Below, in pieces: positions 9,089 to 30,698 of a DNA stretch of 30,698 nt. Both the position numbers and the translations under genes were made by a program. This stretch comes from a virus. The stretch's first letter is position 1. Each line of letters begins with the position of its first letter. The DNA is taken from positions 1 through 30,698 of IMG/VR virus record IMGVR_UViG_3300044966_000524; one strand, written 5' to 3'. The notes beneath the pieces are model-generated. The model saw nothing but the letters and a program-made list of their open reading frames with translations, made no database searches and had not been told where the DNA came from.

Positions 9089-9447
9089 GCGCCACGCCTG
9101 AGACCGATGCGCTGTATGCGCAAATGCTGGCAGAGAACCCCGGCAACTTTATTCACCTCGAGGAGTTTCTGGAACTGGCTTGCCGATTGGAGCGCGAGCG
9201 TGACGAGGCGAGAAATGGACGAGAAGCTTACAAGCAACTTGCTATTAAACACGCGCAAGAGCGCGACGAGGCAAGAACAACCATCGAAGACGCAAAACGA
9301 GCATTAAATGCAACCGATTATGAGGGGATTTTATTGGCGGCAATGCGAGTAAAGGCAGAGCGCGACGAGGCGAGGGAGAGATGCGCCAAGCTACAAAACA
9401 TTGCAGAAAGAGCGGTAAATCTTGGCCTTGGAGGAAAAACGAAATGA
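9085..9447 (+). CDS. Coiled-coil hypothetical with ERDEAR repeats
   Basis: A 120-residue protein with a strong AAGGAGG ribosome-binding site. It starts with a short conserved-looking leader (MSATPETDALYAQ) and is then mostly coiled coil, with the motif ERDEAR recurring three times (about residues 38, 59 and 91). This layout is common in small phage early proteins, with no known function. It overlaps the sigma factor start by ATGA. Confidence 0.7.
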   Translation: MSATPETDALYAQMLAENPGNFIHLEEFLELACRLERERDEARNGREAYKQLAIKHAQERDEARTTIEDAKRALNATDYEGILLAAMRVKAERDEARERCAKLQNIAERAVNLGLGGKTK

Positions 9448-9971
9448 ACGAGGACGCAATGACCTCGTGCATTGCACGCATCGCCAACGGAGACGAGCAA
9501 GCCATGGCCGACCTGTTCGCCCTCACGCAGGGAGATATCACGCGCATCATTGCCTCAATCGTCCCGCCGGATGATGCCGGCGACATCTACCAGACCGCGA
9601 TGCTGCGAGTCTGGCGCAATGCGGGAACATTCCGCACCGGGTTGCCCGTCATGCCGTGGCTGATCGGTATCGCCCGCCTTGCGGCCTTCGACCTTTTACG
9701 AACTCGGAGGCGCAGAAGTGCCTTATTTGAAAAAAATACCGACGCAACCCCTGATCTCGTGGCGTCATTAAAGGAGGAGCGGCAAGAGGTCGGCCATCAT
9801 CTCGCACAACTGCCCGAAGTGCAAAAAAAAATTATCCATTTAAGCTTTTTTAAAAAACTCCCGCTCAAAGACATCGCCTCGCAATTAGGCATCCCCCACA
9901 GCCAAGCACGCACTCTTCGCCGGAAGGCGCTCAACTACCTGAAAGAAAGCCTAAAACTTGAAAACCTGTAA
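9444..9971 (+). CDS. ECF-like sigma-70 family sigma factor
   Basis: A 175-residue protein of the extracytoplasmic-function sigma size. Region 2 (about 20-92) has DAGDIYQTAMLRVWRNAGTF and PWLIGIARLAAFDLLRTRRRR; region 4 (119-172) has LPEVQKKIIHLSFFKKLPLKDIA and a helix-turn-helix GIPHSQARTLRRKALNYL. It would bind host core polymerase and redirect it. GGAGG lies nine bases before the ATG at 9444. Its position at the junction of early and late modules, beside a Mor-like activator, suggests it drives phage late transcription. No anti-sigma gene is adjacent. Confidence 0.87.
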   Translation: MNEDAMTSCIARIANGDEQAMADLFALTQGDITRIIASIVPPDDAGDIYQTAMLRVWRNAGTFRTGLPVMPWLIGIARLAAFDLLRTRRRRSALFEKNTDATPDLVASLKEERQEVGHHLAQLPEVQKKIIHLSFFKKLPLKDIASQLGIPHSQARTLRRKALNYLKESLKLENL

Positions 9972-10149
9972 AGAGAAAAGCGGAACACCACACCATGCCG
10001 CCCGTGGATATGTCGTGCTATGGGCCACGCTCATGGCTCATGCCAAGCCCAACCATCGCGGCTCGATCGCCGAGATCGGCAGGGAAATGATGGAGGCAAT
10101 CGACCTCGATGAGCAACGCAAGGACAAAGGAGAAGCGCATGAACTCTGA
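9958..10149 (+). CDS. Hypothetical small protein, start uncertain
   Basis: An open frame between the sigma factor and the Mor-like gene. It can begin at TTG 9958, GTG 10015 or ATG 10033; none has a ribosome-binding site. The C-terminal part (GSIAEIGREMMEAIDLDEQ) is a convincing amphipathic helix with codon use like the neighbours. Its stop overlaps the start of the next gene by 11 bases. A 31-codon frame from ATG 9994 in another frame is an alternative. No function can be given. Confidence 0.45.
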   Translation: MKTCKEKSGTPHHAARGYVVLWATLMAHAKPNHRGSIAEIGREMMEAIDLDEQRKDKGEAHEL

Positions 10150-10612
10150 AATACCATTACCACCAACCGCGCAAGTGGTTGCGGATGTCATAGGACGTGA
10201 TGCCACACTGGCCCTTGCCATGTCCTGCCTGTATCGCTGCCTCTATGTCCCAAAGGGAAAGCTGGCCCCGGACAGCTATCTCGTGCGGACAATCGGCGAA
10301 GAGAAGGCAAAGCTCATGCAAAGGGAGTTCATCGGCATGCTCTTACCGCTCGCAACATGTCACCACATCGCCGTCTTTGAACGCCAGCAAAGGATACGCG
10401 CTGCGGTCGCTGAAGGAAAGACACACGCGCAAGTCGCAGTCGCGTATGGCCTCACGGTCAAATGGGTGCGCAACCTATGCGCCCGCAAACCAGATGAATA
10501 TCGATACCCACTCAAAGCCTACGACCAGCCACCAGCCAGGGGGGTAGTAGGTTCTTCCGAGGGGGACCGGGAGCGGGTATGCGGAAACTTGCAGAGTTTG
10601 GTTAGAGATTGA
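10139..10612 (+). CDS. Mor-like transcription activator
   Basis: A 157-residue protein resembling the Mor/C activator family of phage Mu. The N-terminal dimerisation part has VIGRDATLALAMSCLYRCLYVPKG; the helix-turn-helix is in EGKTHAQVAVAYGLTVKWVRNLC (about 92-114). Mor-type proteins activate middle or late phage promoters that lack good -35 boxes. AAAGGAG precedes the ATG at 10139 with good spacing. The C-terminal 40 residues are proline- and glycine-rich and unassigned. Beside the sigma factor, it is a second candidate late regulator. Confidence 0.68.
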   Translation: MNSEIPLPPTAQVVADVIGRDATLALAMSCLYRCLYVPKGKLAPDSYLVRTIGEEKAKLMQREFIGMLLPLATCHHIAVFERQQRIRAAVAEGKTHAQVAVAYGLTVKWVRNLCARKPDEYRYPLKAYDQPPARGVVGSSEGDRERVCGNLQSLVRD

Positions 10613-12718: not shown

Positions 12719-14634
12719 CCGGAGAGCAGCAAGAGTTGGCCGGCCTCGGGCGGGTGATTTCAAAAACATGGTCGCCCCCGCCAAAATGGACGATCAGCGA
12801 ATGGGCAGACCACCGGCGCAAACTCTCCGGGGAGGCGGCAGCGGAGAAGGGGCAGTGGCGAACCAACCGCGCCGAATACCAGCGCGGAATCATGGACGCC
12901 GTTGCCGATCCCACCATTGAGCAAGTCGTCGTCATGTCATCGGCACAGGTGGGGAAAACGGAAATCCTTCTCAACTGCATCGGCTACTTCGTGGACTTCG
13001 ACCCCTCGCCCCTCATGCTCGTTCAGCCGGACGAGGCGATGGCAGAGACATTCAGCAAAGACCGTCTCGCGCCGATGTTTCGAGACTCGCCCAGCCTCCG
13101 CTCCAAGGTGCGACCGGCAAAGACACGCGACAGCGGAAACACGATCCTGCATAAACGATTCCCCGGCGGGCATGTCACGCTTGTCGGAGCCAACGCCCCC
13201 AGCGGCCTCGCCTCTCGCCCGATCCGAATCCTCCTGCTTGACGAGGTGGACCGATACCCCGCCAGCGCGGGAACGGAAGGTGATCCGGTAAATTTGGCCA
13301 TCGCCCGCACCAAGAATTTTTGGAACAGAAGAATCGTCATGGTCTCGACCCCGACCGTCAAGGGCTTGTCCCGCATAGAGCGAGCTTTTGAGATTTCCGA
13401 TCAGCGGCATTTTCTGGTGCCTTGCCCGCATTGCCAACACGAGCATCCGTTGCGGTGGGGGAATGTTGTCTGGACGGACGGACGCCGCGACCTCGCCACC
13501 CTCCGCTGTCCCGCCTGCAACGGCACGATCACAAACGCACAAAAAAACCAAGCCGTTGCCCGTGGTCGGTGGCAGGCCAGCGCCGGACCCAGCCGCATCG
13601 CGGGCTTTCATCTCAACGAACTTTATTCGCCGTGGCGAAGCATCGCAGACATCGCCATCGAGCACGGACGGGCGAAGGACGATCCCTCCACCCTGCAAGT
13701 CTGGATCAACACCAGCCTGGGTGAAACATGGGAGGAAGGCGGCGAGCGCATCAGCGAGCACGCATTGATCGAGCGATGCGAACCCTACCCGCAGGCGGAT
13801 GTTCCCGCCCGTGGGCTGATTCTCACGGCAGGCGTCGATACCCAGCAAGACCGCCTCGAGGTCGAAGTGGTCGCGTGGGCAGGAGGCGAAGAAAGCTGGA
13901 GCGTTGCATACCATGTCATCCTCGGAGACCCTGACATTCCCGAAGGAACGGCAGGCAGTCCGTGGACGCACCTTACCGACTACCTTCGCAAGCGGTGGAC
14001 CTCGGAGGCAGGCGGCGAAATGGTCATCGAAACCACCTGCATCGATACCGGGGGCAGCAACACGCAGGCCGTTTACGGCTATGTGAAACGCCACAAGGGA
14101 GACCGAGTTTACGGCATCAAGGGACAAGGCGGCCCCGGCTTGCCCATCGTCGGCAACCCCGCCCGCCGCAGAGCAGGGAAAAAGACCAGCCGCCCCATCG
14201 ATGTTTACATCGTCGGCGTCGATTCCGCGAAGAGCATCGTATACAAGCGCCTCCGCATCACCGAACCCGGCTCTGGATATTGCCATTTCCCGCAGGGACG
14301 CAGCGCCGAGTATTTCCGAGGTCTGACCGCAGAAAAAGCCGTGACGAAATTCGTGAAAGGTTTCCCCCGGCTGGAATGGCACAAAACATCCGGCGCACGC
14401 AACGAACCGCTCGATTGCCGGGTTTACGCATTCGCCGCGCTGGTGCTCCGCGCCCCGCAGTTTGACAAGCTCGCCCTACGGAGGCGGCAGACCATGCCCG
14501 CGCCGAAGCCCGCCGAGGTAGAGACGCCCCCTCCTACGGAACTCCCCGCAGAAGACACCCCCCCACCTCACGAAGACACTGCCGGAAAACGCAGGCGCAC
14601 CCAGCGCCGTGGCAGCTTCGTGAACTCATGGTGA
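12715..14634 (+). CDS. Terminase large subunit, GpA family
   Basis: A 639-residue packaging ATPase and nuclease, almost the length of lambda gpA (641). The N-terminal ATPase has Walker A SSAQVGKT (75-82) and Walker B LLLDEVDRYP (173-182). A zinc-binding insert follows (CPHC at about 237-240 and CPAC). The C-terminal nuclease begins near AGVDTQQDRLEVEVVAW, containing a metal-binding Asp. The enzyme cuts concatemers and drives DNA into the prohead. The last 50 residues are Pro/Glu-rich and contain a copy of the dispersed repeat at 14538-14557. The gene overlaps the next by seven bases. Confidence 0.95.
   Translation: MTGEQQELAGLGRVISKTWSPPPKWTISEWADHRRKLSGEAAAEKGQWRTNRAEYQRGIMDAVADPTIEQVVVMSSAQVGKTEILLNCIGYFVDFDPSPLMLVQPDEAMAETFSKDRLAPMFRDSPSLRSKVRPAKTRDSGNTILHKRFPGGHVTLVGANAPSGLASRPIRILLLDEVDRYPASAGTEGDPVNLAIARTKNFWNRRIVMVSTPTVKGLSRIERAFEISDQRHFLVPCPHCQHEHPLRWGNVVWTDGRRDLATLRCPACNGTITNAQKNQAVARGRWQASAGPSRIAGFHLNELYSPWRSIADIAIEHGRAKDDPSTLQVWINTSLGETWEEGGERISEHALIERCEPYPQADVPARGLILTAGVDTQQDRLEVEVVAWAGGEESWSVAYHVILGDPDIPEGTAGSPWTHLTDYLRKRWTSEAGGEMVIETTCIDTGGSNTQAVYGYVKRHKGDRVYGIKGQGGPGLPIVGNPARRRAGKKTSRPIDVYIVGVDSAKSIVYKRLRITEPGSGYCHFPQGRSAEYFRGLTAEKAVTKFVKGFPRLEWHKTSGARNEPLDCRVYAFAALVLRAPQFDKLALRRRQTMPAPKPAEVETPPPTELPAEDTPPPHEDTAGKRRRTQRRGSFVNSW
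14538..14557 (+). repeat. Dispersed repeat copy A (inside terminase 3' end)
   Basis: GGAACTCCCCGCAGAAGACA, identical to the copy at 21473-21492 and one or two changes from those at 17862 and 27026. Here it is translated within the proline-rich tail of the terminase as part of TELPAEDTPP. No AAAAT box lies 16 bases downstream, unlike the three intergenic copies, so it probably lacks promoter function. Confidence 0.85.
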
Positions 14635-15130: not shown

Positions 15131-16660
15131 ATGGGCCTCCTTCAAAACATTTTTTCCCGCGCCACCACGAAGAAGCCCGCCCAAAGCCGCGCCGACCAGC
15201 CTCGTCTCTGGTCGGCGCGGTCCATTCTTTCCGACACCATGGGGAGCTTCGCCAGCGCAGGCATGCCGCAATCCGCCGGTGCAGGCCGTCTGGAATCCAC
15301 ATGGGCAGGGACACCGACCACGATTGACGCATGGATTTTCCAATACTGGAGCCGCATCGTCGCCCGCTCCCGTGAGCAGGCCGAAAACAACGACCACTTA
15401 AAAAAATTCCTCCAAATGGCCCGCGACAATATCGCAGGCCCGACAGGCTTCACCTTCAACGCCCAAATCCGCGACCCCAGCGGAACGATGGACACCGTGG
15501 CCAGCAGCGCCATCGAAGATGCCTTCGCTGATTGGTCGCGCCGTGGCAACTACGACATCACCGGACAACTCTCCCGCGCCGATGGCGAGCGGCTCGCAGT
15601 CACCACCGCCGCGATGGATGGCGAAGTCATCTGCATCAAGAAATATGGCGAAGACCTCAACAAATGGGGCTTCGCTGTGCAGTTCATCGACCCCGTTTTG
15701 CTCAACCCTACGAAGTGGGAAAAATTGAACAACGGCAATGTCATCCGCCACGGCATCGAGTTCAATCCGAACGGTCGCCCGGTCGCCTACCATTTCCGAA
15801 ACTACGACGAGCAAATGATGGGCTATGTGAACTACAACGGCGAGAGCTTCCAGCGAGTTCCCGCCGATCAGGTCATCCATCGTTTCCTCCCAGAGCGAGT
15901 CGGCCAAAAGCGCGGCCTCCCGTGGGCGCGAACAGCCCTCTGGCGCATGCGCATGCTGGCAGGTTTTGAAGACGCCGCCGTTGTCAACGCCCGTGTGTCC
16001 GCCAGCAAAATGGGCTTTTTCCGAAACCTCGATGGCGACAGCGACGACATACTCGAAATGGACGCCGAACCCGGCAAGTTCGAGGACATCGGAAACCGCG
16101 AGTTCATCCCCTACACGCCGCAATTTCCAGATCAGGCATTCGACCCGTTTTGCAAAGCCATGCTTCGCTCGATTTCATCCGGCCTCGGCGTGAGCTACAA
16201 CAACCTCGCCAGCGACCTCACGAGCGTCAATTTCTCATCGATCCGCCAAGGCGCACTCGACGAGCGCGAAGTGTGGAAGGGCCTGCAAGAATGGCTCATC
16301 TCTGGCTTCGTCATGCCCATTTACGAGGCATGGCTGGAGCGTTCCCTCCTCGCCAACAAAATCCTCATCGCTGGCAAGCCCCTCAAATTCGAGCGCCTCG
16401 AAAAATACAAACAAGTTGCTTTCACGGGCAGGCGCTGGGCATGGATCGACCCAAGCGCAGAAATGGCCGCAAACGAAAAAGCCATCTCACAGAAACTCAA
16501 ATCCCGCAGCGAGATCATCCGCGAGACCAGCAACCGCGACCCCGAAGATGTCTGGAGCGAGATCGAGCGCGAGGAAGTCGAACTCAAAAAGCGCGGCATC
16601 GTGCCGCTCGTCCCCGCAGGCGCAGCCGCCCCCGTGGCACAGCCCGACCCCCAGCCATGA
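15131..16660 (+). CDS. Portal protein, lambda family
   Basis: A 509-residue protein of the lambda gpB portal family (lambda B is 533). It forms the dodecameric ring at the prohead vertex through which DNA enters. Family features include the Arg-rich N-terminal clip, RSREQAENNDHLKKFLQMARDN, the GPTGF turn, TAAMDGEVICIKKY, IDPVLLN and the late VSYNNLASDLTSVNFSSIRQGALDEREVW segment. The C-terminus is Ala/Pro-rich. It directly precedes a small beta protein rather than the expected prohead protease, which is displaced about 4.9 kb downstream. Confidence 0.95.
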   Translation: MGLLQNIFSRATTKKPAQSRADQPRLWSARSILSDTMGSFASAGMPQSAGAGRLESTWAGTPTTIDAWIFQYWSRIVARSREQAENNDHLKKFLQMARDNIAGPTGFTFNAQIRDPSGTMDTVASSAIEDAFADWSRRGNYDITGQLSRADGERLAVTTAAMDGEVICIKKYGEDLNKWGFAVQFIDPVLLNPTKWEKLNNGNVIRHGIEFNPNGRPVAYHFRNYDEQMMGYVNYNGESFQRVPADQVIHRFLPERVGQKRGLPWARTALWRMRMLAGFEDAAVVNARVSASKMGFFRNLDGDSDDILEMDAEPGKFEDIGNREFIPYTPQFPDQAFDPFCKAMLRSISSGLGVSYNNLASDLTSVNFSSIRQGALDEREVWKGLQEWLISGFVMPIYEAWLERSLLANKILIAGKPLKFERLEKYKQVAFTGRRWAWIDPSAEMAANEKAISQKLKSRSEIIRETSNRDPEDVWSEIEREEVELKKRGIVPLVPAGAAAPVAQPDPQP

Positions 16661-17004
16661 GCCAACCCTTCGACATCACCATTCCAGCCGGCGAGTCATT
16701 CTTTTTCGAGGTGACGCTGAAAGACTCCACAGCGTCAAACGCATTGCCAGTCAACCTGACCGACTTCACCGCATCCGGCCAACTGCGCGAAGACTGGGAC
16801 AAACCACTCCTCGCCGACTTTGCCGTCACATTCCCGCTTCCCCGCACAAGCGGCAAGGTGCGCGTGCTCCTCACCGACGAGCAGACCCGCGCCCTGCCAG
16901 TGACCCGCGCCCGCTACGACATTTTCTTAACCGACCCCTACGGCAACAGCCGCAAAATCCTCGAAGGCTTCGCATACATCGAGCGAGCCATAACCCGCAC
17001 CTGA
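16657..17004 (+). CDS. Beta-rich structural protein, BppU-N-like
   Basis: A 115-residue protein starting at the ATG overlapping the portal stop. It begins FDITIPAGESFFFEVTLKDS, followed by LPVNLTDFTASGQLRED and RYDIFLTDPYGNSRKILEG, giving an Ig-like beta sandwich similar to the N-terminal domains of baseplate upper proteins and some head decoration or neck proteins. Its position argues for a neck or head accessory role. Exact function unknown. Confidence 0.68.
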   Translation: MSQPFDITIPAGESFFFEVTLKDSTASNALPVNLTDFTASGQLREDWDKPLLADFAVTFPLPRTSGKVRVLLTDEQTRALPVTRARYDIFLTDPYGNSRKILEGFAYIERAITRT

Positions 17005-17007
17005 CCT

Positions 17008-17748
17008 ATGGCAGTCGTTGACCTCACACTCGTTCCGAATACGCAAGTCGTCGTCGCCCCCGGCATCGCACTCCCCATCGGCAGCGGAGCGCAGGGACCG
17101 GCTGGCACGGTCGCCATCGGCAGCGTCACGCAACTCGCCACCGGCACAGCGCCCACCGTGACCAATGTCGGAAGCCCTACGAATGCCGTTCTCAATTTCG
17201 GAATCCCCCTCGGAGCGCAAGGCCCCGGCGGCACGATAGCCGTTGGCGCAGTGCAGACCGTGGCAGGAAACCAACCCGCAACCGTCTCCAATGTCGGCAC
17301 GCCACAAAATGCCGTTCTCAATTTCGCCCTCCCTCGCGGCCTCTCGTCCACCATCTCAGTCGGCACGGTCTTCATGCTCCCCGCAGGAGCCACGCCCACG
17401 ATCACCAATGTCGGCACGCAGGAAAACGCCGTTCTCAATTTCGGCATCCCGTCACCAGCCCCCGGCCCGAAGGGCGATGCAGGCGAGCGCGGCCCCGCCT
17501 TCGTTTACGGGTCCCTCTCATTCATCTCGGATGTCTCCGACGATCACCTCACCCACTGGATCGGTCGCGCCTCCGCAGGCACCGGCACGGATCAAGCCGC
17601 ATGGACAATCACGAAAAGCGTGTTCACTCGCAGCGGTGAACTCGTCAGCCGAGGCGTAGCCGCCAACGCAGTCTGGGACACCCGCGAGACAGCCAACTAT
17701 GTCGCCGGGGCTGTCTCCACCAGCGAGATCGACGCCGGTTTCTTCTAA
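17008..17748 (+). CDS. Repeat-containing appendage protein with collagen-like segments
   Basis: A 246-residue protein with three near-identical units built around TNVG, NAVLNF and GIP, separated by 42 and 39 residues. Short collagen-like Gly-X-Y segments (GAQGPAG, GAQGPGG and GPKGDAGERGP) join and follow the units. The C-terminus (FVYGSLSFISDVSDDHLTHWIGRASAG) is a globular beta domain. Such proteins trimerise and form fibres or head decorations. It stands at the head of the appendage block and is followed by a strong terminator. Confidence 0.75.
   Translation: MAVVDLTLVPNTQVVVAPGIALPIGSGAQGPAGTVAIGSVTQLATGTAPTVTNVGSPTNAVLNFGIPLGAQGPGGTIAVGAVQTVAGNQPATVSNVGTPQNAVLNFALPRGLSSTISVGTVFMLPAGATPTITNVGTQENAVLNFGIPSPAPGPKGDAGERGPAFVYGSLSFISDVSDDHLTHWIGRASAGTGTDQAAWTITKSVFTRSGELVSRGVAANAVWDTRETANYVAGAVSTSEIDAGFF
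17155..17445 (+). repeat. Three in-gene direct repeats
   Basis: The blocks AATGTCGG and GCCGTTCTCAATTTCG recur together at about 17164, 17290 and 17407, spaced 126 and 117 bases. They encode the TNVG...NAVLNFGIP units of the collagen-like protein and could support recombination that changes repeat number. Confidence 0.75.
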
Positions 17749-17769: not shown

Positions 17770-17810
17770 CCCGCCCCGCCTCTCCACGATGCGCAATGGG
17801 CGGGTTTTTT
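17770..17810 (+). terminator. Rho-independent terminator after repeat protein
   Basis: A 7-bp perfect stem CCCGCCC/GGGCGGG with a 21-base loop is followed by six T. It ends the transcript of the portal and repeat-protein genes and is directly followed by dispersed repeat copy B. Confidence 0.8.
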
Positions 17811-17881
17811 GTGCCCTCTCCCCCTCCGTGTCCTCCGCGCTCTCCGTGGTTAAACCCGCACGGAACGCCCCGCAGAAGACA
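17811..17881 (+). repeat. Dispersed repeat copy B
   Basis: An intergenic element made of CT-rich CCTCCGTG-type repeats, then CTCCGTGGTTAAAC, then GGAACGCCCCGCAGAAGACA (17862-17881). Its two halves recur in copies C and D. It follows a terminator and precedes the appendage gene at 17956. Confidence 0.85.
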
Positions 17882-17903
17882 GGGATTTTCGCAGCGGCAA
17901 AAT
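17876..17903 (+). promoter_or_regulatory. Candidate late promoter in repeat copy B
   Basis: AAGACA (17876-17881) and CAAAAT (17898-17903) are separated by exactly 16 bases, as in copies C and D, while the spacer differs between copies. This is the pattern of -35/-10 conservation. A CA-rich 50-base leader separates it from the ATG at 17956. Confidence 0.5.
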
Positions 17904-17955
17904 AACGCCCGTCCACCACGGACACCGCAACCACAACCACCACCACAAAAAAATT

Positions 17956-18714
17956 ATGTCAGTTCCAATTCGCATTCGCCGCCGCCAATCCGGTTCCGCC
18001 GGAGCACCCGGAGTTCTCAAGTCCGCCGAACTCGCATTCAACGAAGTTGATGGCATCCTCTACTACGGTAAAGGTGCCGACGCTTCCGGCAACGCCACAC
18101 AAATCGTTGGCATCGGCGGCAACGCCTCCAGCAGCTACGCAGACGGCCTCGTCGCCACAGAGCGTGACGCACGCATCGCTGCTGACGCAGCAGAAGAGAC
18201 CCGCGCCCTCGCCGCTGAATCCGCATTGAGCACACGGGTGACCACTGAGAAGAATCGCGTTGATGCGATCCTTTCCGCTTCATCCGCTGACAAAGACAGC
18301 TTCGCCGAGATCGTCACTCTGATCAATTCGGTGGACCTGACGAACGACAACGCGCTCGCAGCCGCCGTCCTCTCGATCAACAACTCGGTTGACGCAGAAG
18401 TCACTCGCGCCACTGGCGAGGAAAACAGCATCAAGTCGGCAGCGACCGCGCTAACTACCCGTGTGAGCAGCGCCGAGAGCAGCATCACAGCCCTTCAATC
18501 CCGCGCCACCACCATCGAAGGCGCAGCCACCTCGCTCACCAGCCGAGTGACCTCAGCCGAGAGCGCAGCGACCGCACTAACCAGCCGGGTTTCCGCAGCA
18601 GAGAGCGCAGCCACCAGCGAGCAAAACGCCCGCATCGCAGCCGACGACGCGTTAAGCGCCCGAGTGCTGGCCCTCGAACCCCTCCTCACGGAGATCGACG
18701 GCGGCTCGTTCTAA
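17956..18714 (+). CDS. Appendage/tail-fibre-like coiled-coil protein
   Basis: A 252-residue protein. The N-terminal domain (SVPIRIRRRQSGSAGAP, then AELAFNEVDGILYYGKG) is a phage fibre attachment module shared with the protein at 18793. A long trimeric coiled coil follows, rich in Ala, Ser and Glu, with repeats of the type TSRVSSAESS/TSRVTSAESAA, and the C-terminus ends LTEIDGGSF. It has no ribosome-binding site but a long CA-rich leader. It likely forms an elongated virion appendage, whether on head or tail. Confidence 0.78.
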   Translation: MSVPIRIRRRQSGSAGAPGVLKSAELAFNEVDGILYYGKGADASGNATQIVGIGGNASSSYADGLVATERDARIAADAAEETRALAAESALSTRVTTEKNRVDAILSASSADKDSFAEIVTLINSVDLTNDNALAAAVLSINNSVDAEVTRATGEENSIKSAATALTTRVSSAESSITALQSRATTIEGAATSLTSRVTSAESAATALTSRVSAAESAATSEQNARIAADDALSARVLALEPLLTEIDGGSF

Positions 18715-18729
18715 AGCAACGGCCCACAG

Positions 18730-18769
18730 GGCCGGTCAACCTCGTGTCCATACATGACGACCGGCCTTT
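18730..18769 (+). terminator. Hairpin, possible terminator
   Basis: GGCCGGTC and GACCGGCC form a perfect 8-bp stem around a 21-base loop, followed by TTTC. It lies in the 78-base gap after the coiled-coil gene. The loop contains an ATG that I reject as the next gene's start. Confidence 0.5.
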
Positions 18770-18792
18770 CAAAACCTTCCGAGTCTATACTC

Positions 18793-19188
18793 ATGCCAGT
18801 TCCAATTAAGCCCAAAAAATCCACCGTGCCGGGTCGCATCCCCAGCACGGCGGATCTTTCTTTTGGCGAAGTCGCCGTAAATTTGGCCGACAAAAAAATC
18901 TATAGCCGCGACAGCACAGGCATAATCCAGCTCGCACTTCCAACAAGGGAAGAACTCCGGGCGATTAACCCAAGAGACCCCAGCCTATACCAGCATCTCT
19001 CCGCCGTAATAGGATACGACGCTTATTCAGGACGCCTTGAGTGGGACGACTACCCCGCCACAGGTCAACCAGAAGACTCCCCCGCCTGGACCATTTACCG
19101 AATCACCACCAACTCCGCAGGCGATGTCGTCTCGGAGCAATCCGCCACCGGAGCGTGGTCATCCAAACAATCTCTCCCCTACAGCTAA
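18793..19188 (+). CDS. Fibre-type N-terminal domain protein
   Basis: A 131-residue protein. The start at 18793 is preferred to the upstream ATG at 18754, because that lies in the hairpin and because MPVPIKPKKSTVPGRIPSTADLSFGEVAVN then aligns with the N-terminus of the 17956 protein (MSVPIRIRRR...AELAFNEV). After this shared module come KKIYSRDSTGIIQLALP and a compact domain with AWTIYRITTNSAG. It lacks the coiled coil of its paralogue. It probably caps or adapts another appendage subunit. Confidence 0.7.
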   Translation: MPVPIKPKKSTVPGRIPSTADLSFGEVAVNLADKKIYSRDSTGIIQLALPTREELRAINPRDPSLYQHLSAVIGYDAYSGRLEWDDYPATGQPEDSPAWTIYRITTNSAGDVVSEQSATGAWSSKQSLPYS

Positions 19189-19191
19189 AAC

Positions 19192-20529
19192 ATGATCGCA
19201 AACGCACTCCCTCGCCCGCTCACCGCAGGCTCAGTTGACAACGCCATCCTCCGCGCAGACGGCACTGGTGGAGCAACATTGGAAAACTCTGGCCTTATTG
19301 TGGACGATGCCGTCGTGCCATACTCCGTGACAGGCGATGCCGCCACGGATGTCATCACGGCGACCGGTCATATCTACACGGCAAACCAGACCGTCATTTT
19401 TAGCGCCATCACCGGTGGCGCGGGGTTGTCCGCAAACACCGTCTATTTCGTCCGCAACCCATCTGGCAACACCTTCCAACTCTCCACCACCAGCGGCGGC
19501 GCAGCCATCAATTTCACGACCAACATCACTGCCGGAACGGTCATCGCCATTCAAGCCAATGTGGCCATTTCGCAAAACACAGCGGAAACCAACTCTGCGC
19601 TCGTCCTTACGCCAAAAGGCACAGGGGCCTTTATTGTTGGCCTAAAACCGGATGGGACGAATACTGGCGGAAATGCAAGGGGGACAAATGCGGTCGATTT
19701 GCAGACCACCAGAAGCGTGGCAACTCAAGTTGCAAGCGGCACAAGAAGTTTTGTAGGCGGAGGAGAAAGAAACACTGCATCCAACACAAACAATGTAGTC
19801 TCTGGCGGTTATCAAAACACAGCATCTGGCGGTTTTTCTAACATAATCCCCTCAGCGGTTTGTGGTGGAGGTCAAAACACTGCCAATTCTATGGGGTCAT
19901 TTGTTGGAGGAGGTAGATCAAACGCTGCAAGCAACGATTATTCTATTGTTGGTTCTGGATATTCAAATAACGCGTCAGGAAACGCCTCTGTTGTTTGCGG
20001 AGGAGGTATTGGCGGTGGGGACATAGGTGCAGGGAACATTGCTTCAGGAACTTGGTCAGCAATTTTAGGTGGAAGCGCCGCACTTGCTAACAGAACAGGC
20101 ATGCAAGCTCACGCTGTAGGACAATTTGCGGCCCAAGGCGATGCCCAACGCGCCCGGTTCGTGCTTCGCAACAAGACGACAACGAACAGCGCAGTCGAGC
20201 TATTCTTGGATGGCAGCGCAACACGCCTCACGATCCCATCTGGCAAAGTTCTCGCCCTCACAATCAACATCTCCGGCATCTCCAGCACAGGTGCGGCAGT
20301 GGCGCACTACATGCGGCAATACGCTCTCAAGAATGTCTCTGGAACCTGCACGGAGGTTTACGCCCCAATCACCATTGGAACCGACAACGCCGCAGGAACA
20401 TCCATCGCGCTCTCCGCAGGCGATGACGCAAATGGCGAATATCTAAAAGTCAGCGTCACCGGCACAGCCTCCACCATCTGGCGGTGGGTCGCCTCGGTCG
20501 ATGCTGTCGAAATCATATTCGGAACTTAA
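19192..20529 (+). CDS. Appendage protein with YadA-like head repeats
   Basis: A 445-residue protein. After an N-terminal domain and a beta-rich stretch (NTVYFVRNPSGNTFQLSTTSGG), residues about 183-300 contain a run of short repeats such as FVGGGERNTAS, VSGGYQNTASG and GSGYSNNASG. These match the left-handed beta-roll head repeats of YadA-type trimeric adhesins. A globular C-terminal domain (about 320-445) follows. The repeat DNA is richer in A and T than the rest. The protein probably makes a trimeric fibre that binds cell surfaces; the domain type is recognised, the binding target is not. Confidence 0.8.
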   Translation: MIANALPRPLTAGSVDNAILRADGTGGATLENSGLIVDDAVVPYSVTGDAATDVITATGHIYTANQTVIFSAITGGAGLSANTVYFVRNPSGNTFQLSTTSGGAAINFTTNITAGTVIAIQANVAISQNTAETNSALVLTPKGTGAFIVGLKPDGTNTGGNARGTNAVDLQTTRSVATQVASGTRSFVGGGERNTASNTNNVVSGGYQNTASGGFSNIIPSAVCGGGQNTANSMGSFVGGGRSNAASNDYSIVGSGYSNNASGNASVVCGGGIGGGDIGAGNIASGTWSAILGGSAALANRTGMQAHAVGQFAAQGDAQRARFVLRNKTTTNSAVELFLDGSATRLTIPSGKVLALTINISGISSTGAAVAHYMRQYALKNVSGTCTEVYAPITIGTDNAAGTSIALSAGDDANGEYLKVSVTGTASTIWRWVASVDAVEIIFGT

Positions 20530-20542
20530 CCAAACACACACC

Positions 20543-20782
20543 ATGAAAACATACGGACTTATATTCGCAGACGGACGCAAAGAACTCGCCAGCATCGTGC
20601 TGGACGAAAACGACGAGCCACGCATCGACACCATTCGCCCATACCCTTGCCCGGAGGATTGGGTCGATCCGCAAATTGTCCCGCTTGTCAAAATCGAGCA
20701 ACCCGATACCGGCGACTGGGAACCGAACATCGTCTGGTTCGCAGATCGCGTCGAGCGCCAGTGGATTCAAGCTAACTCCTAA
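20543..20782 (+). CDS. Small acidic protein of appendage block
   Basis: A 79-residue protein starting at the ATG after a CCAAACACACACC leader. It begins KTYGLIFADGRKELASIVLDE and is Asp/Glu/Pro-rich, with DWVDPQIVPL and VWFADRVERQWIQ. Not recognised. It could be a chaperone or assembly factor for the adjacent fibre proteins, by position only. Confidence 0.65.
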   Translation: MKTYGLIFADGRKELASIVLDENDEPRIDTIRPYPCPEDWVDPQIVPLVKIEQPDTGDWEPNIVWFADRVERQWIQANS

Positions 20783-20796
20783 CCAAACACGACCAC

Positions 20797-21378
20797 ATGC
20801 CAAACGAACTCAACATCGCCCTCGCCACTACCGGCCTCACCGTCACCGCCCAGCCATACCAAAACGGAGCCGCCGTAGGCTCTGCCATATCGTGCCCGGA
20901 AACCGGAAGCACCGGATTCTACTCTGGGAACATGGCAGGCAGTGCCGGAACCTACCAAATCGCATTCCGCTCCGCAGGAGTCAATGTCGGCAGCGGCAGT
21001 ATCGTGTGGGACGGAACCGCCGAAGTCGCCAGCAGTGCGCCATCAGCAGCTCAAAACGCAGCAGCCGTTTGGAGCCAAGCGACTCGCACCGTAACGGGCG
21101 GCACGGTGGACACTCTCACCAACGCGCCAACCGTGCCATCGGCCTCGGCTATAGCGTCACAGGTCAGAACTGAGCTATCCGTGGAGCTTGGGCGAGTCGA
21201 TCAAGCCATCTCCAGTCGAGCAACCCCCGGAGACATCCCGACAGAAACGGAAATCGCCGCCGAGGTCTGGGCCAAGCCGACCACCGAGCTGACGATCACC
21301 GGCTCCATCGGCGAACGCGCCAAAAATCAAAGCACGGTCTCAACGACCGGCGCTCAACTCGCCGCAGCACTCTCGTAA
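20797..21378 (+). CDS. Structural protein with beta-sandwich N-terminal domain
   Basis: A 193-residue protein. The N-terminal half (IALATTGLTVTAQPYQNGA, GSTGFYSGNMAGSAGTYQIAF, GSGSIVWDGTAEV) is a beta domain seen in various phage structural proteins. The second half is Ala-rich and helical (AAQNAAAVWSQATRTV, ASAIASQVRTELSVELGRVDQAISS). It is last in the appendage block and is followed by the strongest terminator in the window. A capsid accessory or fibre role is plausible. Confidence 0.68.
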   Translation: MPNELNIALATTGLTVTAQPYQNGAAVGSAISCPETGSTGFYSGNMAGSAGTYQIAFRSAGVNVGSGSIVWDGTAEVASSAPSAAQNAAAVWSQATRTVTGGTVDTLTNAPTVPSASAIASQVRTELSVELGRVDQAISSRATPGDIPTETEIAAEVWAKPTTELTITGSIGERAKNQSTVSTTGAQLAAALS

Positions 21379-21395
21379 GTTGGTTCATAGGTTAT

Positions 21396-21430
21396 CCCGG
21401 CGTGGGCCAAAACCCACGCCGGGTTTTTTT
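21396..21430 (+). terminator. Strong rho-independent terminator
   Basis: An 11-bp perfect G+C-rich stem (CCCGGCGTGGG/CCCACGCCGGG) with a 6-base loop is followed by seven T. It closes the appendage transcription unit just upstream of dispersed repeat copy C. Confidence 0.92.
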
Positions 21431-21492
21431 GTGTCTCTGTGCCCTCTGTGTCCTCGGTGGTTAAACCTCCTCGGAACTCCCCGCAGAAGACA
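21431..21492 (+). repeat. Dispersed repeat copy C
   Basis: CT-rich block (CTCTGTG-type repeats), CTCGGTGGTTAAAC, then GGAACTCCCCGCAGAAGACA at 21473-21492. Together with copy B it flanks the appendage genes in direct orientation. It lies between a terminator and the capsid gene. Confidence 0.87.
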
Positions 21493-21514
21493 ACCCGACA
21501 CCCACTGGCAAAAT
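21487..21514 (+). promoter_or_regulatory. Candidate late promoter in repeat copy C
   Basis: AAGACA (21487-21492) and CAAAAT (21509-21514) lie 16 bases apart, as in copies B and D. The capsid ATG is only 10 bases beyond the CAAAAT box, so a transcript from here would have almost no leader; the gene also has no ribosome-binding site. Confidence 0.5.
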
Positions 21515-21524
21515 TCGCGCACAG

Positions 21525-23393
21525 ATGAAGCCCGCCGCAAAAGAATTTTTCAGCCAGCCAATGCGCCGAGTTATGACCATTGGCGCAATCGCTGCGGAGT
21601 CGCGCACCATCGAGCTGGCCTTTTCCAGCAACGCCGAAATCGAGCGTTGGCCCGGCATGGTCGAAGTCCTCGATCACTCAGCGGATGCCTGCGACCTCTC
21701 GCGGCTCAACGACCGCGCAAATCTTTTGTTCAACCATGACCAGAACGAGGTTCTGGGAGTCGTCGAGACCGCCCGCATCGATGCAGACGGGATGGGCCGT
21801 GCGCTGGTGCGCTTCGGCAAATCCGAATGCGCCGAGGAAGCGTGGCAAGATGTGCAGGACGGAATCCTCACGAAGGTCTCAGTCGGCTACCGCATCCGCG
21901 AAGTCAAGTTGACCGAAGAACGCGAGGGCGTGGATGTCTACACCGTCAGCCGGTGGGAACCCTACGAAATCTCCCTCGTCACCATCCCCGCCGACACTTC
22001 TGTCGGAGTGGGTCGCAGCCTTAACCACCCGCCAGAGGCAATTAGCCTCGGCACAATCACCCAATCCAATATGCAAGACACACCTACACCCGCGCCACAA
22101 GCGCCCGCACCGGCGGCACCGGAGATCAACATCGTCGCCGAGCGCAACGCCGCCATCAAAGGCGAGCAAGACCGCACCCGCTCGATCCTCGAAGCCGGTG
22201 ACAAATACGGCATGCCCGCCCTCGCCGCACAGATCGTGCGTGACGGTGGCAACCTGGTGGACTTCCAAGCCGCCGCACTCGCCGAGAAAGACAAGCGCAG
22301 CGCCCAAGTCCGCGAAGGCAACGCACCAATCGGCCTCAACGAACGCGAAGCTGGCAGCTTCTCCTTCGTGAAGCTCATCCGCGCCCTCGCCGCCGAGCCA
22401 ACCGACAAGAAAGCCCGTCAAGACGCCGCTTTTGAATTGGAAGCTTGCGAAGCCGCCGCCGGAGCAATCGCCCATCGCAACGTCAAGGGAACCATGATTC
22501 CCGTTGATGTCCTTACCGCAGGCTATGGACAGCGCGGCACAAACACCGTTTCCGGCAAATCCGCAGCAGGCTACACCGGCACAGGAAACAACACCGTGCA
22601 AACAAACCTCCTCGCCTCCTCGTTCATTGACGTGCTCCGCAACAAAGCGGTCATCATGAATTTGGGAACTGAGCTGGCTGGCCTCGTCGGCAATGTGGAC
22701 ATGCCCAAGCAAACAACATTCGGCACTGGCTACTGGCTCGGCGAAGATGACGACGCGACAAAATCCGACATCGATTTCGGACTCGTCTCGCTCCGTCCTC
22801 GCACGGTTGCAAACTTCGGCGAAATCACACGCCGCATGCTCATGCAACCCTCGCTGTCCGTCGAAGCCCTGCTTCGTAACGACCTCGCGCAAGGCTTGGC
22901 CCTCACCATCGACTCCGCAGCATTCTACGGAACCGGACTCAGCAACGCACCAACCGGAATCAAATCCGCCGCAGGTGTGCTCTCGCAGTCCTTCGTCGCA
23001 GTGCAGCCAACCTTCGCGGAACTCGTGGGAATGGAAAGCCTCGTCAGTGCTCAGAACACGGACGTTGCCAGCATGGCATTCGTTGCCAACCCATCCACAC
23101 GCGGCATGGCAAAAACCTCGCTCAAATTCCCAACCGGCTCCACCAACGGCGGCACGATCTGGGAAAATGGAACAATGAACGGCTACCGCACCGAGATCAC
23201 AAACCAGATCACAACTGGCGATGTGTTCTTCGGCAACTTCGCCGACTTCATCATCGGCCTCTGGGGTGGTCTCGAAATCACCGTGGACCCATACAGCAAC
23301 TCGACCAAAGGCCGTCTCCGCATCGTTTGCATGCAAGACGTGGACTTCGCTGTCCGCCGCGCCCAGTCCTTCGTTTACGGCAAAAAGCCCTAA
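21525..23393 (+). CDS. Fused HK97 prohead protease and major capsid protein
   Basis: A 622-residue fusion. Residues about 15-170 are an HK97-family prohead serine protease, with catalytic His in LLFNHDQ (H71), Ser in KVSVGYRI (S119) and a nearby acid in WEPYEIS (E148). A proline/alanine-rich linker (about 182-200) and a helical scaffold-like delta region (about 200-300) lead to the HK97-fold major capsid protein (about 330-622), ending RRAQSFVYGKKP. In HK97 and related phages these are separate genes; fusions are known in some prophages and need self-cleavage during maturation. It follows a terminator and repeat copy C, and is followed by a terminator. Confidence 0.92.
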   Translation: MKPAAKEFFSQPMRRVMTIGAIAAESRTIELAFSSNAEIERWPGMVEVLDHSADACDLSRLNDRANLLFNHDQNEVLGVVETARIDADGMGRALVRFGKSECAEEAWQDVQDGILTKVSVGYRIREVKLTEEREGVDVYTVSRWEPYEISLVTIPADTSVGVGRSLNHPPEAISLGTITQSNMQDTPTPAPQAPAPAAPEINIVAERNAAIKGEQDRTRSILEAGDKYGMPALAAQIVRDGGNLVDFQAAALAEKDKRSAQVREGNAPIGLNEREAGSFSFVKLIRALAAEPTDKKARQDAAFELEACEAAAGAIAHRNVKGTMIPVDVLTAGYGQRGTNTVSGKSAAGYTGTGNNTVQTNLLASSFIDVLRNKAVIMNLGTELAGLVGNVDMPKQTTFGTGYWLGEDDDATKSDIDFGLVSLRPRTVANFGEITRRMLMQPSLSVEALLRNDLAQGLALTIDSAAFYGTGLSNAPTGIKSAAGVLSQSFVAVQPTFAELVGMESLVSAQNTDVASMAFVANPSTRGMAKTSLKFPTGSTNGGTIWENGTMNGYRTEITNQITTGDVFFGNFADFIIGLWGGLEITVDPYSNSTKGRLRIVCMQDVDFAVRRAQSFVYGKKP

Positions 23394-26971: not shown

Positions 26972-27045
26972 CCTCCTCCGTGCTCTCCGTGTCCTCCGTG
27001 GTTCAACCTTTCTGACCGCTTCGCGGGAAGTCCCCGCAGAAGACA
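26972..27045 (+). repeat. Dispersed repeat copy D
   Basis: CT-rich CCTCCGTG-type block, CTCCGTGGTTCAAC, a longer middle, then GGAAGTCCCCGCAGAAGACA at 27026-27045. It separates the spike gene from the gpW-like gene in an otherwise tightly packed P2-type baseplate operon. Confidence 0.87.
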
Positions 27046-27067
27046 CCCCCCAGCGCGTCCCTAAAAT
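27040..27067 (+). promoter_or_regulatory. Candidate late promoter in repeat copy D
   Basis: AAGACA (27040-27045), 16-base spacer, TAAAAT (27062-27067), five of six matches to a standard -10. The next ATG is eight bases later, so the leader would be nearly absent. Confidence 0.5.
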
Positions 27068-27075
27068 TCGCCAGC

Positions 27076-27411
27076 ATGCGAGGCATGAGCAGCGACACCG
27101 GGAAAGCGCTTTCCGGGTTGGACCATTTGAAGCAGTCGATACGGGACATTCTAACCACCCCGCTCGGCTCTCGCGTCATGCTGCGAGACTACGGCTCGCG
27201 CCTCTTTGACCTCGTGGACGCCCCGATGAATCGCGGCACCATCGTTGAAATCTATGTCGCCACCATCGAGGCAATCCGCAAATGGGAGCCTCGCGTTGAG
27301 ATCACTCGCGTCATCGCCCAGGCCATCGAACCCGGCAAGATCACCATCGCTCTCGAAGGCGTCTATTTACCCACCGGAACCGCGCTCACACTGGACGGCA
27401 TGGTCGTATGA
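27076..27411 (+). CDS. W: Baseplate wedge protein W (gp25-like)
   Basis: A 111-residue homologue of P2 gpW (115 residues) and T4 gp25, a core baseplate wedge component. The family motif is present: LDHLKQSIRDILTTPLGSRVMLRDYGSRLFDLVDAP, including the conserved EPR in WEPRVEITRV. ATG at 27085 is an alternative start. It directly follows candidate promoter D and overlaps the J gene by ATGA. Confidence 0.9.
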   Translation: MRGMSSDTGKALSGLDHLKQSIRDILTTPLGSRVMLRDYGSRLFDLVDAPMNRGTIVEIYVATIEAIRKWEPRVEITRVIAQAIEPGKITIALEGVYLPTGTALTLDGMVV

Positions 27412-29079: not shown

Positions 29080-30698
29080 ATGTCGCTTCAATTCATCATC
29101 ACGGACGCCGGACGTGCCGCCATCGCGCAGGTTGGCGGTGCCATCGGCCCCGTCACACTCACAAAAATCGCCCTCGGCAGCGCAGGCTACACGCCACTCG
29201 CCAACCGCACCGCACTGCAAACCGAAATAAAACGCCTCGATCCAAGCGGAAGCAGCGTGCCAGTGCCGGGAACGATCTCGATCACCGCACAGGACAACTC
29301 CGCAGACTCTTACTCGGTTAAGGAAATCGGCCTCTATACGAACAACAACGTCCTCTTTGCCATATGCGCACAGAGCGCCGTTATCATGACAAAGGCAAGC
29401 GGATCAGTCGCTCTTTTTGCGATGGATTTTGTGATGACCAACGTCCCTGCCGGAACCGTCACCGTGGGCAATGTAGGCTTTACCTATTCTCAGGCCACGG
29501 AGACCGCCATGGGCGTGCTGGGCATCGCCACGACCGCCGAAGCCCAAGCAGGAGCGATCGACACAAAGATCATCACCCCGCTGAAGCTGGCACAGGTCAC
29601 AGCCACGGAAACCCGCAAAGGCGTCATCGCGCTGGCAACAACAGCGGAGGCGCAAGCTCTCGCGCCGGATGCAACTAAGGCGCTCACCGTTGCTCGGCTC
29701 GTGGATCGGACAGCCACGACAAGTCGCGTGGGAGTGGTGGAACTCGCAGACAATACGGAGACGCAGACAGGGACAGACGCCACCCGTGCCGTCACGCCTG
29801 CATCGCTTGCTTCAAGAACCGCCACAGACGCACGGGCAGGAATCGTGGAGTTAGCAACAAACGCTGAGACGCAGGCGGGAACAATTACAACTCTGGCCGT
29901 GACACCCGCTGGCCTCGCCAGTCGCATAGCAGGAACCGGACAGGCTGGGCTTGTAGCGCTCGCAACAATCGATCAAACGCAAACTGGAACGGACACCGGG
30001 CGCGCAGTGACCCCCGCAGGCCTTTCCAGCCGGACAGCGACCGAAACGCGGTCGGGAATCGTGCAACTCGCAAGCACAACGGAAGCATCGGAGGGAACAA
30101 TAACAACCAAAGCGGTCACACCTGCCGCGCTAAAATTTTCTCTCGCCGCTTACTCTGGATCAGGGCACACGCATGCGGCATCCGCGATAGTGAGCGGAAC
30201 GATCGAAAACGCACGCCTCACGAAAGCAACAAGCAGCGTTGCTGGCATTGTCGAACTGGCCGCGAACGCAGAGACACAAACGGGAACGGCCACCGACCTC
30301 GCAGTGACGCCAGCCGGTCTAAAATCAACTTTAGGGAATTATTCAGTTTCGACTCACACCCACGCAGCATCCGCGATAGTGAGCGGAACGATCGACAATG
30401 CCCGCCTCCCGCAAGCGGCAAGCAGCGCGGCGGGCATCGTGGAACTTGCTGACAACACGGAAACACAGACCGGAACGGCTACCAACCTCGCCGTCACGCC
30501 TGCATCGCTGGCAAGTCGCACGGCCACCGACACGCGAGCCGGAATTGTGGAGCTTGCTGACAACACCGAGACACAGACCGGAATCGACACAGCCCGCGCC
30601 GTGACCCCCGCCAGCCTCGCCAGCCGCATCGCTACAACATCACGCGCAGGGATTGTTGAGCTTGCCGACAACACCGAGACACAGGCGGGAACGGACAC
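29080..30698 (+). CDS. H: Tail fibre protein H-like, 3' end outside window
   Basis: An open frame from ATG 29080 to the window edge, at least 539 residues. The N-terminal part (about 1-140) is a P2 gpH-type fibre attachment domain: SLQFIITDAGRAAIAQVGGA, then SVKEIGLYTNNNVLFAI and DFVMTNVPAGTVTVGN. From about residue 145 come at least nine fibre repeats with the core GIVELADNTETQTGT followed by AVTPASLASR, at a 36-residue period; two units carry an extra 27 residues with HTHAASAIVSGTI. It forms the long adsorption fibre. No stop is reached, so the receptor-binding tip is missing here. Confidence 0.9.
   Translation, partial: MSLQFIITDAGRAAIAQVGGAIGPVTLTKIALGSAGYTPLANRTALQTEIKRLDPSGSSVPVPGTISITAQDNSADSYSVKEIGLYTNNNVLFAICAQSAVIMTKASGSVALFAMDFVMTNVPAGTVTVGNVGFTYSQATETAMGVLGIATTAEAQAGAIDTKIITPLKLAQVTATETRKGVIALATTAEAQALAPDATKALTVARLVDRTATTSRVGVVELADNTETQTGTDATRAVTPASLASRTATDARAGIVELATNAETQAGTITTLAVTPAGLASRIAGTGQAGLVALATIDQTQTGTDTGRAVTPAGLSSRTATETRSGIVQLASTTEASEGTITTKAVTPAALKFSLAAYSGSGHTHAASAIVSGTIENARLTKATSSVAGIVELAANAETQTGTATDLAVTPAGLKSTLGNYSVSTHTHAASAIVSGTIDNARLPQAASSAAGIVELADNTETQTGTATNLAVTPASLASRTATDTRAGIVELADNTETQTGIDTARAVTPASLASRIATTSRAGIVELADNTETQAGTD
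29515..30698 (+). repeat. Tail-fibre repeat array, 108-bp period
   Basis: Equivalent positions of successive units fall at 29515, 29623, 29737, 29845, 29953, 30061, 30250, 30439, 30547 and 30655. Most steps are 108 bases; one is 114 and two are 189 (108 plus an 81-base insert). The last units are nearly identical at DNA level, suggesting recent amplification or exchange. Confidence 0.85.

Follow-up and report, generated by a model that had tools for sequence, protein, structure and literature searches.

The stretch of DNA analysed here (the window) is IMG/VR virus record IMGVR_UViG_3300044966_000524, 30.7 kb long (30,698 nt). Records of this kind are metagenomic and may be fragments. Judged by its genes, which include an integrase, RecT, an exonuclease, RusA, a gpA-type terminase and baseplate proteins like those of phage P2, the source is a temperate tailed phage. 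Its host is likely a member of the Verrucomicrobiota, the one pointer being a capsid relative of 35% identity in a metagenome-assembled genome (MAG) of the Opitutae. The locus in question extends from the portal gene to a gene for a fused protease and capsid protein. It contains a hairpin of the abiF RNA family and two direct repeats, B and C, which flank a block of five genes (b1 to b5). The upstream half of each repeat is named P1 and the 3' half P2; the latter also stands alone at other sites. The locus, together with the related sites elsewhere in the window, is composed as follows:

14538–14580, + strand: predicted late promoter A, in the 3' end of the terminase gene; P2 at 14538–14557, 17-nt spacer, GACACT at 14575–14580
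15131–16660, + strand: portal protein, lambda family (PF05136 7.9e-81, phrog_21 4.9e-88)
16678–17004, + strand: tail-fibre-assembly-like gene, the true left part of the inserted region (phrog_1084 6e-20; phrog_3304 'L-shaped tail fiber protein assembly' 1.5e-14)
17008–17748, + strand: coll, a repeat-rich minor-tail- or fibre-like gene (phrog_4120 4.9e-13)
17770–17811, + strand: orphan abiF-family RNA hairpin and T-run at the 3' end of the portal operon, doubling as terminator (Rfam RF03085 39.8 bits, gathering cut-off 37)
17824–17857, + strand: P1 half of repeat B, a dispersed host-type repeat (CTCCGTGTCC...GTGGTTAAAC)
17862–17903, + strand: predicted late promoter B; P2 at 17862–17881, 16-nt spacer, CAAAAT at 17898–17903
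17956–18714, + strand: b1, coiled-coil appendage protein, in 17 of 17 phages
18754–19188, + strand: b2, short protein with a tail-fibre N-terminal motif (phrog_29752 4e-11 and several tail-fibre phrogs)
19192–20529, + strand: b3, fibre- or adhesin-like, the exchanged part (phrog_9370, tail fibre, 8e-10)
20543–20782, + strand: b4, small protein, exchanged together with b3
20797–21378, + strand: b5, N-terminus variable, C-terminus conserved
21396–21430, + strand: ordinary strong terminator before C (11-bp stem and T7, z −4.97)
21435–21467, + strand: P1 half of repeat C
21473–21514, + strand: predicted late promoter C; P2 at 21473–21492, 16-nt spacer, CAAAAT at 21509–21514, capsid ATG 10 nt downstream
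21525–23393, + strand: protease-capsid fusion, a single open reading frame (ORF) of 622 aa (Peptidase_S78 PF04586 and Phage_capsid PF05065)
27026–27067, + strand: predicted late promoter D; P2 at 27026–27045, 16-nt spacer, TAAAAT at 27062–27067, ATG of a baseplate gene at 27076

The first-pass annotation had described B (17824–17881) and C (21435–21492) as direct repeats flanking the five genes, each preceded by a terminator. This description holds: the copies are 58 nt long and 81% identical, and a hairpin with a T-run precedes each of them (17770–17811 and 21396–21430). When all copies are compared side by side, B and C are composites of P1 and P2. The 20-nt core P2, GGAANKCCCCGCAGAAGACA, occurs four times in the window, always on the + strand, whereas none is expected (100 shuffles). 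Two of these copies lie beyond the ends of the block, and relatives with more sequence contain five. In the relatives, P2 precedes the head-joining gene (A), b1 (B), the capsid gene (C), the baseplate gene (D) and a further gene at site E, always on the coding strand. Site E falls past the end of the window, and the start of its product reads as tail-sheath-like. At A, within the terminase gene, a 14-nt core, CCCCGCAGAAGACA, stays the same while the coding sequence around it varies. Of 388 Verrucomicrobiota genomes, 387 lack P2 and one has it with one mismatch, so P2 is phage-specific. A role as host promoter or host repeat was ruled out on the same count, only P1 being host-like.

P1 follows the pattern CTCCGTG..CCTCCGTGGTTAAAC, which varies among copies, and is dispersed in the Verrucomicrobiota (22 of 145 genomes, up to 19 copies, with essentially none for the reversed control pattern). 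It is missing at D in L006, L020, L021, L023, L024, L029 and L037, and at C in L013 and L019. In the window, P1 (17824–17857, 21435–21467 and 26976–27005) is built from units of about 9 nt, CTCYGTGNC, and ends in GTGGTTAAAC. In Verrucomicrobiota genomes it lies on both strands, and its presence or absence varies at the same phage sites.

P2 and the −10-like hexamer downstream of it very probably constitute a late promoter, of which there are five (A to E); the pattern is provided by comparison, and the promoter activity is deduced from it. The hexamer NANANT stands 16 or 17 nt downstream of P2 at 78 of 84 distinct sites, compared with a mean of 1.1 and at most 5 in composition shuffles. Because related sequences each enter this count, it overstates independence. 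The same spacing is seen in each of the five site classes, which differ in their surrounding sequence. At promoter A, which serves the head-joining and portal operon (gene start at 14628), the P2 core and NANANT are invariant in 12 phages despite varying coding surroundings. Sites A, C, D and E of a sister clade (60–64% capsid identity) have a diverged form of the motif, (AAACG)CGCACAAGAC, followed 16–19 nt downstream by AT-rich sequence, and the motif core is also common to two phages more distant than this clade. Site sequences that change together across the genome are what a regulon predicts. The conservation of P2 before the same operons, the spacing of NANANT and the diverged sister version at A, C, D and E together argue that B and C are late promoters. 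An extra site resembling a late promoter is found in the sister clade before a gene near the lysis gene (L034 12750, L079 12401) and not in the clade of the window. The −10-like hexamers at C and D (21509–21525 and 27062–27076) end 8–10 nt before the start codons. Consequently, the predicted transcription starts are no more than a few bases away from the ATG, and the capsid and baseplate mRNAs may have almost no leader.

The hairpin that precedes B scores above the Rfam gathering cut-off for the abiF RNA, the antitoxin of the AbiF abortive infection system. It is a 37-nt two-stem hairpin with a conserved loop, and its strong stem is followed by T6 (z −3.18). A covariance model built from cellular RNAs only recovers 17770–17811 at 2.6e-7. 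Within 728 kb of phage DNA the same model gives 20 matches, all of them in the slot between coll and B, including a diverged type 2. RF03085 lies above cut-off in 13 of 38 phage records, again always at this slot, with relatives reaching 52.8 bits. No Rfam family matches the type 2 element (e.g. in L006), which the cellular model detects at 2e-5 to 8e-3, and a type 3 element in the same slot is found by neither Rfam nor that model. The two-helix structure is well supported, with 99.1% of cells paired and a covariation of 0.175 compared with 0.051 in shuffles and at most 0.055 in slid controls. Stem covariation appears in the cellular and viral sets alike; in the viral set the search pattern fixed most left-side columns but not the inner pair, columns 8/25, which changes between C-G, A-U, U-A and G-C. 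A 5' flank, AACAACA/AGCAUA, is also common to phage and cellular copies. No gene for the toxin (Abi_2, PF07751) is found in any of the 38 phage records. The window holds the abiF RNA alone and not an AbiF type III-like toxin-antitoxin system.

In cells, the RNA mostly accompanies its toxin. RF03085 is above cut-off in 20 of 388 Verrucomicrobiota genomes, the neighbouring ORFs tested are Abi_2 in ten cases out of ten (E-values 1e-49 to 1e-59), and Abi_2 lies directly downstream of 17 of 28 Verrucomicrobiota RNAs, namely 15 within the distance limit plus L242 and L264, which are counted as linked with an open frame that runs past the RNA. One MAG contig of 3 kb (L246, G077:C78) carries an orphan abiF RNA at 1501–1537 beside phage-tail-like ORFs. 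A pattern scan of IMG/VR found at least 119 stretches with the abiF motif. Among the matches listed, 111 places were classified with an Abi_2 profile built from ten cellular proteins and checked against the Pfam model: 90 have no Abi_2 in at least 1.2 kb downstream, 18 are too short and three have Abi_2. With the Pfam model applied to whole viral records, many of them fragments, Abi_2 is present in three of 50 and absent from 47, again among the matches listed. At least four cultured phages also exceed the cut-off. In the Aeromonas phages PZL-Ah8 and vB_AhaP_PT2 the RNA lies between the connector and capsid-assembly genes, in Salicola phage CGphi29 before the terminase genes, and in Synechococcus phage S-CREM1 no AbiF gene is annotated nearby. 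Rhizobium phage Pasto, which is similar by BLAST, was set aside as falling below the Rfam cut-off.

The best explanation of the locus as a whole, which is probably correct, is a late transcription unit with P2 promoters and an orphan abiF antitoxin RNA. Promoter A would transcribe the head-joining, portal and first fibre genes, and its transcript would end in the abiF-family hairpin. Promoter B would transcribe b1 to b5 up to the ordinary terminator, and promoter C the capsid operon. The suggestion that the block has its own promoter and terminator is thereby borne out as a promoter-to-terminator unit, its promoter part being predicted by comparison. In Clostridioides difficile, the abiF RNA RCd22 binds AbiF directly and neutralises it both in cis and in trans (PMC12373285). 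Late in phage infection, many copies of the phage RNA would bind the host's AbiF-type HEPN toxins and so prevent their activity. As the host's own antitoxin production stops, the hairpin of the phage late transcript would keep AbiF occupied. This role of the hairpin, as an orphan antitoxin and decoy against AbiF-type toxins, presupposes AbiF in the host and is somewhat favoured over the alternatives.

The late promoters are probably read with a phage regulator. Two adjoining genes upstream of the terminase genes could tentatively be candidates:

9381–9968, + strand: sigma factor like those of the extracytoplasmic function (ECF) group, a possible late regulator (Sigma70_r2 1.2e-9, Sigma70_r4 1.6e-10)
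10109–10612, + strand: putative activator of the Mor/C family that might read P2 (phrog_836 'late transcriptional activator' 9.5e-22; PF08765 22.1 bits, slightly below the cut-off of 24.9)

In L202, L203, L206 and L208 (and in L207, with an in-frame TGA) the late activator has an alternative form, in which the N-terminal half of the Mor-like protein stops near residue 107 and the helix-turn-helix is gone. For some of these short forms, remnants of the C-terminus are found about 0.5 kb downstream, past another ORF. A self-splicing intron in the split gene was ruled out, as no Rfam match was obtained. The GGAAC of P2 was likewise discarded as an ECF −35 element: the distance of about 31 nt to the conserved hexamer is too long, and the sigma gene was not found in several P2 phages.

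The block itself is variable. As annotated, five genes lie between the portal and the protease-capsid fusion (ORFs 17956–18714, 18754–19188, 19192–20529, 20543–20782 and 20797–21378), and an appendage role for several genes of the region is backed by tail phrog matches of b2, b3, the 16678 gene and coll; b1, b4 and b5 have no tail phrog match, and b1 no family above cut-off in the phrog and Pfam searches. In the sister phages about 114 bp separate the portal and capsid genes, and B, the block and the abiF RNA are all lacking. The region inserted in the close clade extends from the portal stop to C and thus takes in both genes that precede B. Of the block genes, b1 occurs in each of 17 phages and b2 and the b5 C-terminus in nearly all, while the middle is occupied by one of at least five alternative, unrelated gene sets, b3 being replaced by unrelated genes in 12 of the 17. 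Recombination between the conserved end genes of the block would account for the replacement of its middle among relatives. The proposal of an exchangeable cassette is therefore right insofar as the block is extra relative to the sister phages and its content is swapped, but the swaps occur between b2 and the b5 C-terminus and are not bounded by the repeats.

Whether B and C are brackets through which homologous or site-specific recombination inserts, deletes or swaps the appendage block can be weighed together with the nature of P2. Their direct orientation and 81% identity over 58 nt would suit recombination, the phage encodes RecT and an exonuclease, and pairwise identities do decouple at both repeats (coll against the B junction, rho 0.01; the B junction against b1, −0.05; the b5 C-terminus against the capsid gene, mcp, −0.17). 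However, pairwise identities are uncorrelated between most neighbouring segments, only the 16678 gene and coll travelling together (rho 0.85), and the decoupling is equally complete at joints free of repeats (portal and the 16678 gene, 0.07; b1 and b2, −0.07; b2 and the b5 C-terminus, −0.13), so the repeats are not needed for exchange. The same element stands far from the block at A and D, and at E in relatives, the swapped genes are internal, and the insertion begins at the portal stop. Recombination between B and C, as proposed in the first-pass annotation, is not supported; it would have left behind the two inserted genes upstream of B. The loss of the block with one repeat left, which was sought in relatives, is found in none of the 17 close ones, and no single fused repeat with coll still in place was seen. 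Brackets are thus quite improbable, and transposon or cassette ends were ruled out by the copies at A, D and E, the internal swaps and the wrong left boundary. P2 could also be an RNA-level or another DNA-level signal, such as a translation enhancer or a partition or packaging site. It lies only 30–80 nt from start codons, and no classical −35/−10 consensus was found near it. On the other hand, the fixed 16–17-nt spacing to an A2/A4/T6 hexamer and the terminators directly upstream at B and C are promoter-like, the copies are always ahead of operons, and the motif changed in concert in the sister clade. A signal other than a promoter is accordingly unlikely. Two observations weigh against P2 as a late promoter read by the candidate regulators. 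A scan with the sigma-70 consensus TTGACA/TATAAT reveals no promoter above chance here, so that the promoter case comes from comparison. Several phages with no detectable sigma gene and a Mor-like protein devoid of its helix-turn-helix yet have an identical P2.

The principal rival to the orphan antitoxin is that the hairpin is only a terminator, descended from or resembling an antitoxin RNA and lacking activity against AbiF. Several features count against an antitoxin role. The window phage has one abiF motif, compared with two in RCd22. The hairpin is also a good terminator, with a strong stem, T6 and a position at the operon end, and termination could be its whole job. Other structured elements replace it in some relatives, an unrelated one (type 3) occupying the slot in L005 (6064–6211) and L008 (6792–6938). 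The conserved CUCU..ACGAU loop and the inner covarying pair are not required for termination, yet both are kept here and in unrelated phages, and the 5' flank is common to cellular copies as well. A mere terminator is therefore a possible but less favoured explanation. The RNA might instead be a trigger sensed by AbiF. Defence proteins often sense conserved phage features, and the cellular antitoxin could be a copy of a phage hairpin. The known activity of the abiF RNA is neutralisation (PMC12373285), and a trigger kept in many phages would be costly, which makes this alternative very unlikely. The orphan antitoxin remains the preferred reading, and the swapping of the slot content between abiF type 1, the diverged type 2 and another structured element would be as expected of an arms race.

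Among the other features of the window, coll contains three internal repeats of about 59 nt at 17155–17456, of the VTNVGxPxNAVLNF type. The label 'collagen-like' given to this gene is only loosely apt; these repeats dominate it. Long internal direct repeats of 234 nt and 189 nt, 71–74% identical, occupy the right end (29730–30665) and probably belong to a repetitive fibre-like gene that is truncated where the contig ends. PADLOC gave zero matches among nine unassigned ORFs of the window.

The abiF RNA carries more weight than the question of the repeats, as this antitoxin RNA has only recently been characterised. P2 represents a predicted phage-specific late promoter that can be read from sequence alone in uncultivated phages. 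To our knowledge, the RNA decoys described against type III abortive systems come mainly from escape mutants obtained in the laboratory (pseudo-ToxI). The chances are about even that solitary abiF RNAs form a common, unrecognised class of phage counter-defence RNA in many tailed-phage groups, devoid of toxin and often placed among or at the end of structural transcripts, which floods the cell with antitoxin just as host transcription breaks down and release of the toxin would follow. Cas13 has been proposed to descend from AbiF (PMC12737573). If phage abiF RNAs, those of the cultured Aeromonas, Salicola and Synechococcus phages among them, neutralise AbiF, they would be a widespread natural form of RNA-based anti-defence, findable by Rfam search and easily tested.

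Several known systems resemble the locus in part. Mu-like phages have activator-dependent late promoters of the Mor/C family. As in these phages, several near-identical late sites precede morphogenesis operons and a putative Mor/C-family gene is present, but two regulator types share one site sequence here, with an ECF-like sigma gene beside the putative activator. The P2 site is not known to correspond to the Mu C box. Tail-fibre and receptor-binding modules of tailed phages are exchangeable, and the block shares their conserved ends and swapped middle; those modules follow the tail genes, whereas the block lies between portal and capsid. For the abiF RNA, a DNA region of lactococcal phage sk1 reportedly protects phage 712 from AbiF (work cited in PMC12737573 and PMC6105707), but sk1 is not a demonstrated precedent because neither Rfam nor our own model found an abiF RNA in sk1 or 712. 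S-CREM1 is similar in having RF03085 with no AbiF gene annotated nearby; its published account, in the passages concerned, gives a single Rfam match, calls it possibly functional in infection and puts forward no decoy hypothesis (PMC9964418). RCd22 and RF03085 share with the present hairpin the two-stem form, the conserved loop and a score above the Rfam cut-off, whereas the motif occurs once in the window phage, where it closes a structural operon, and the phage records contain no abiF (Abi_2) gene. Pseudo-ToxI, the RNA that lets phage TE escape ToxIN (PMC5086642, a review), is likewise made by a phage and resembles an antitoxin RNA, that of a type III toxin-antitoxin or abortive infection system. 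It arose in laboratory escape mutants against ToxIN, whereas the abiF RNA is a fixed natural element of many phages and would act on a different toxin family.

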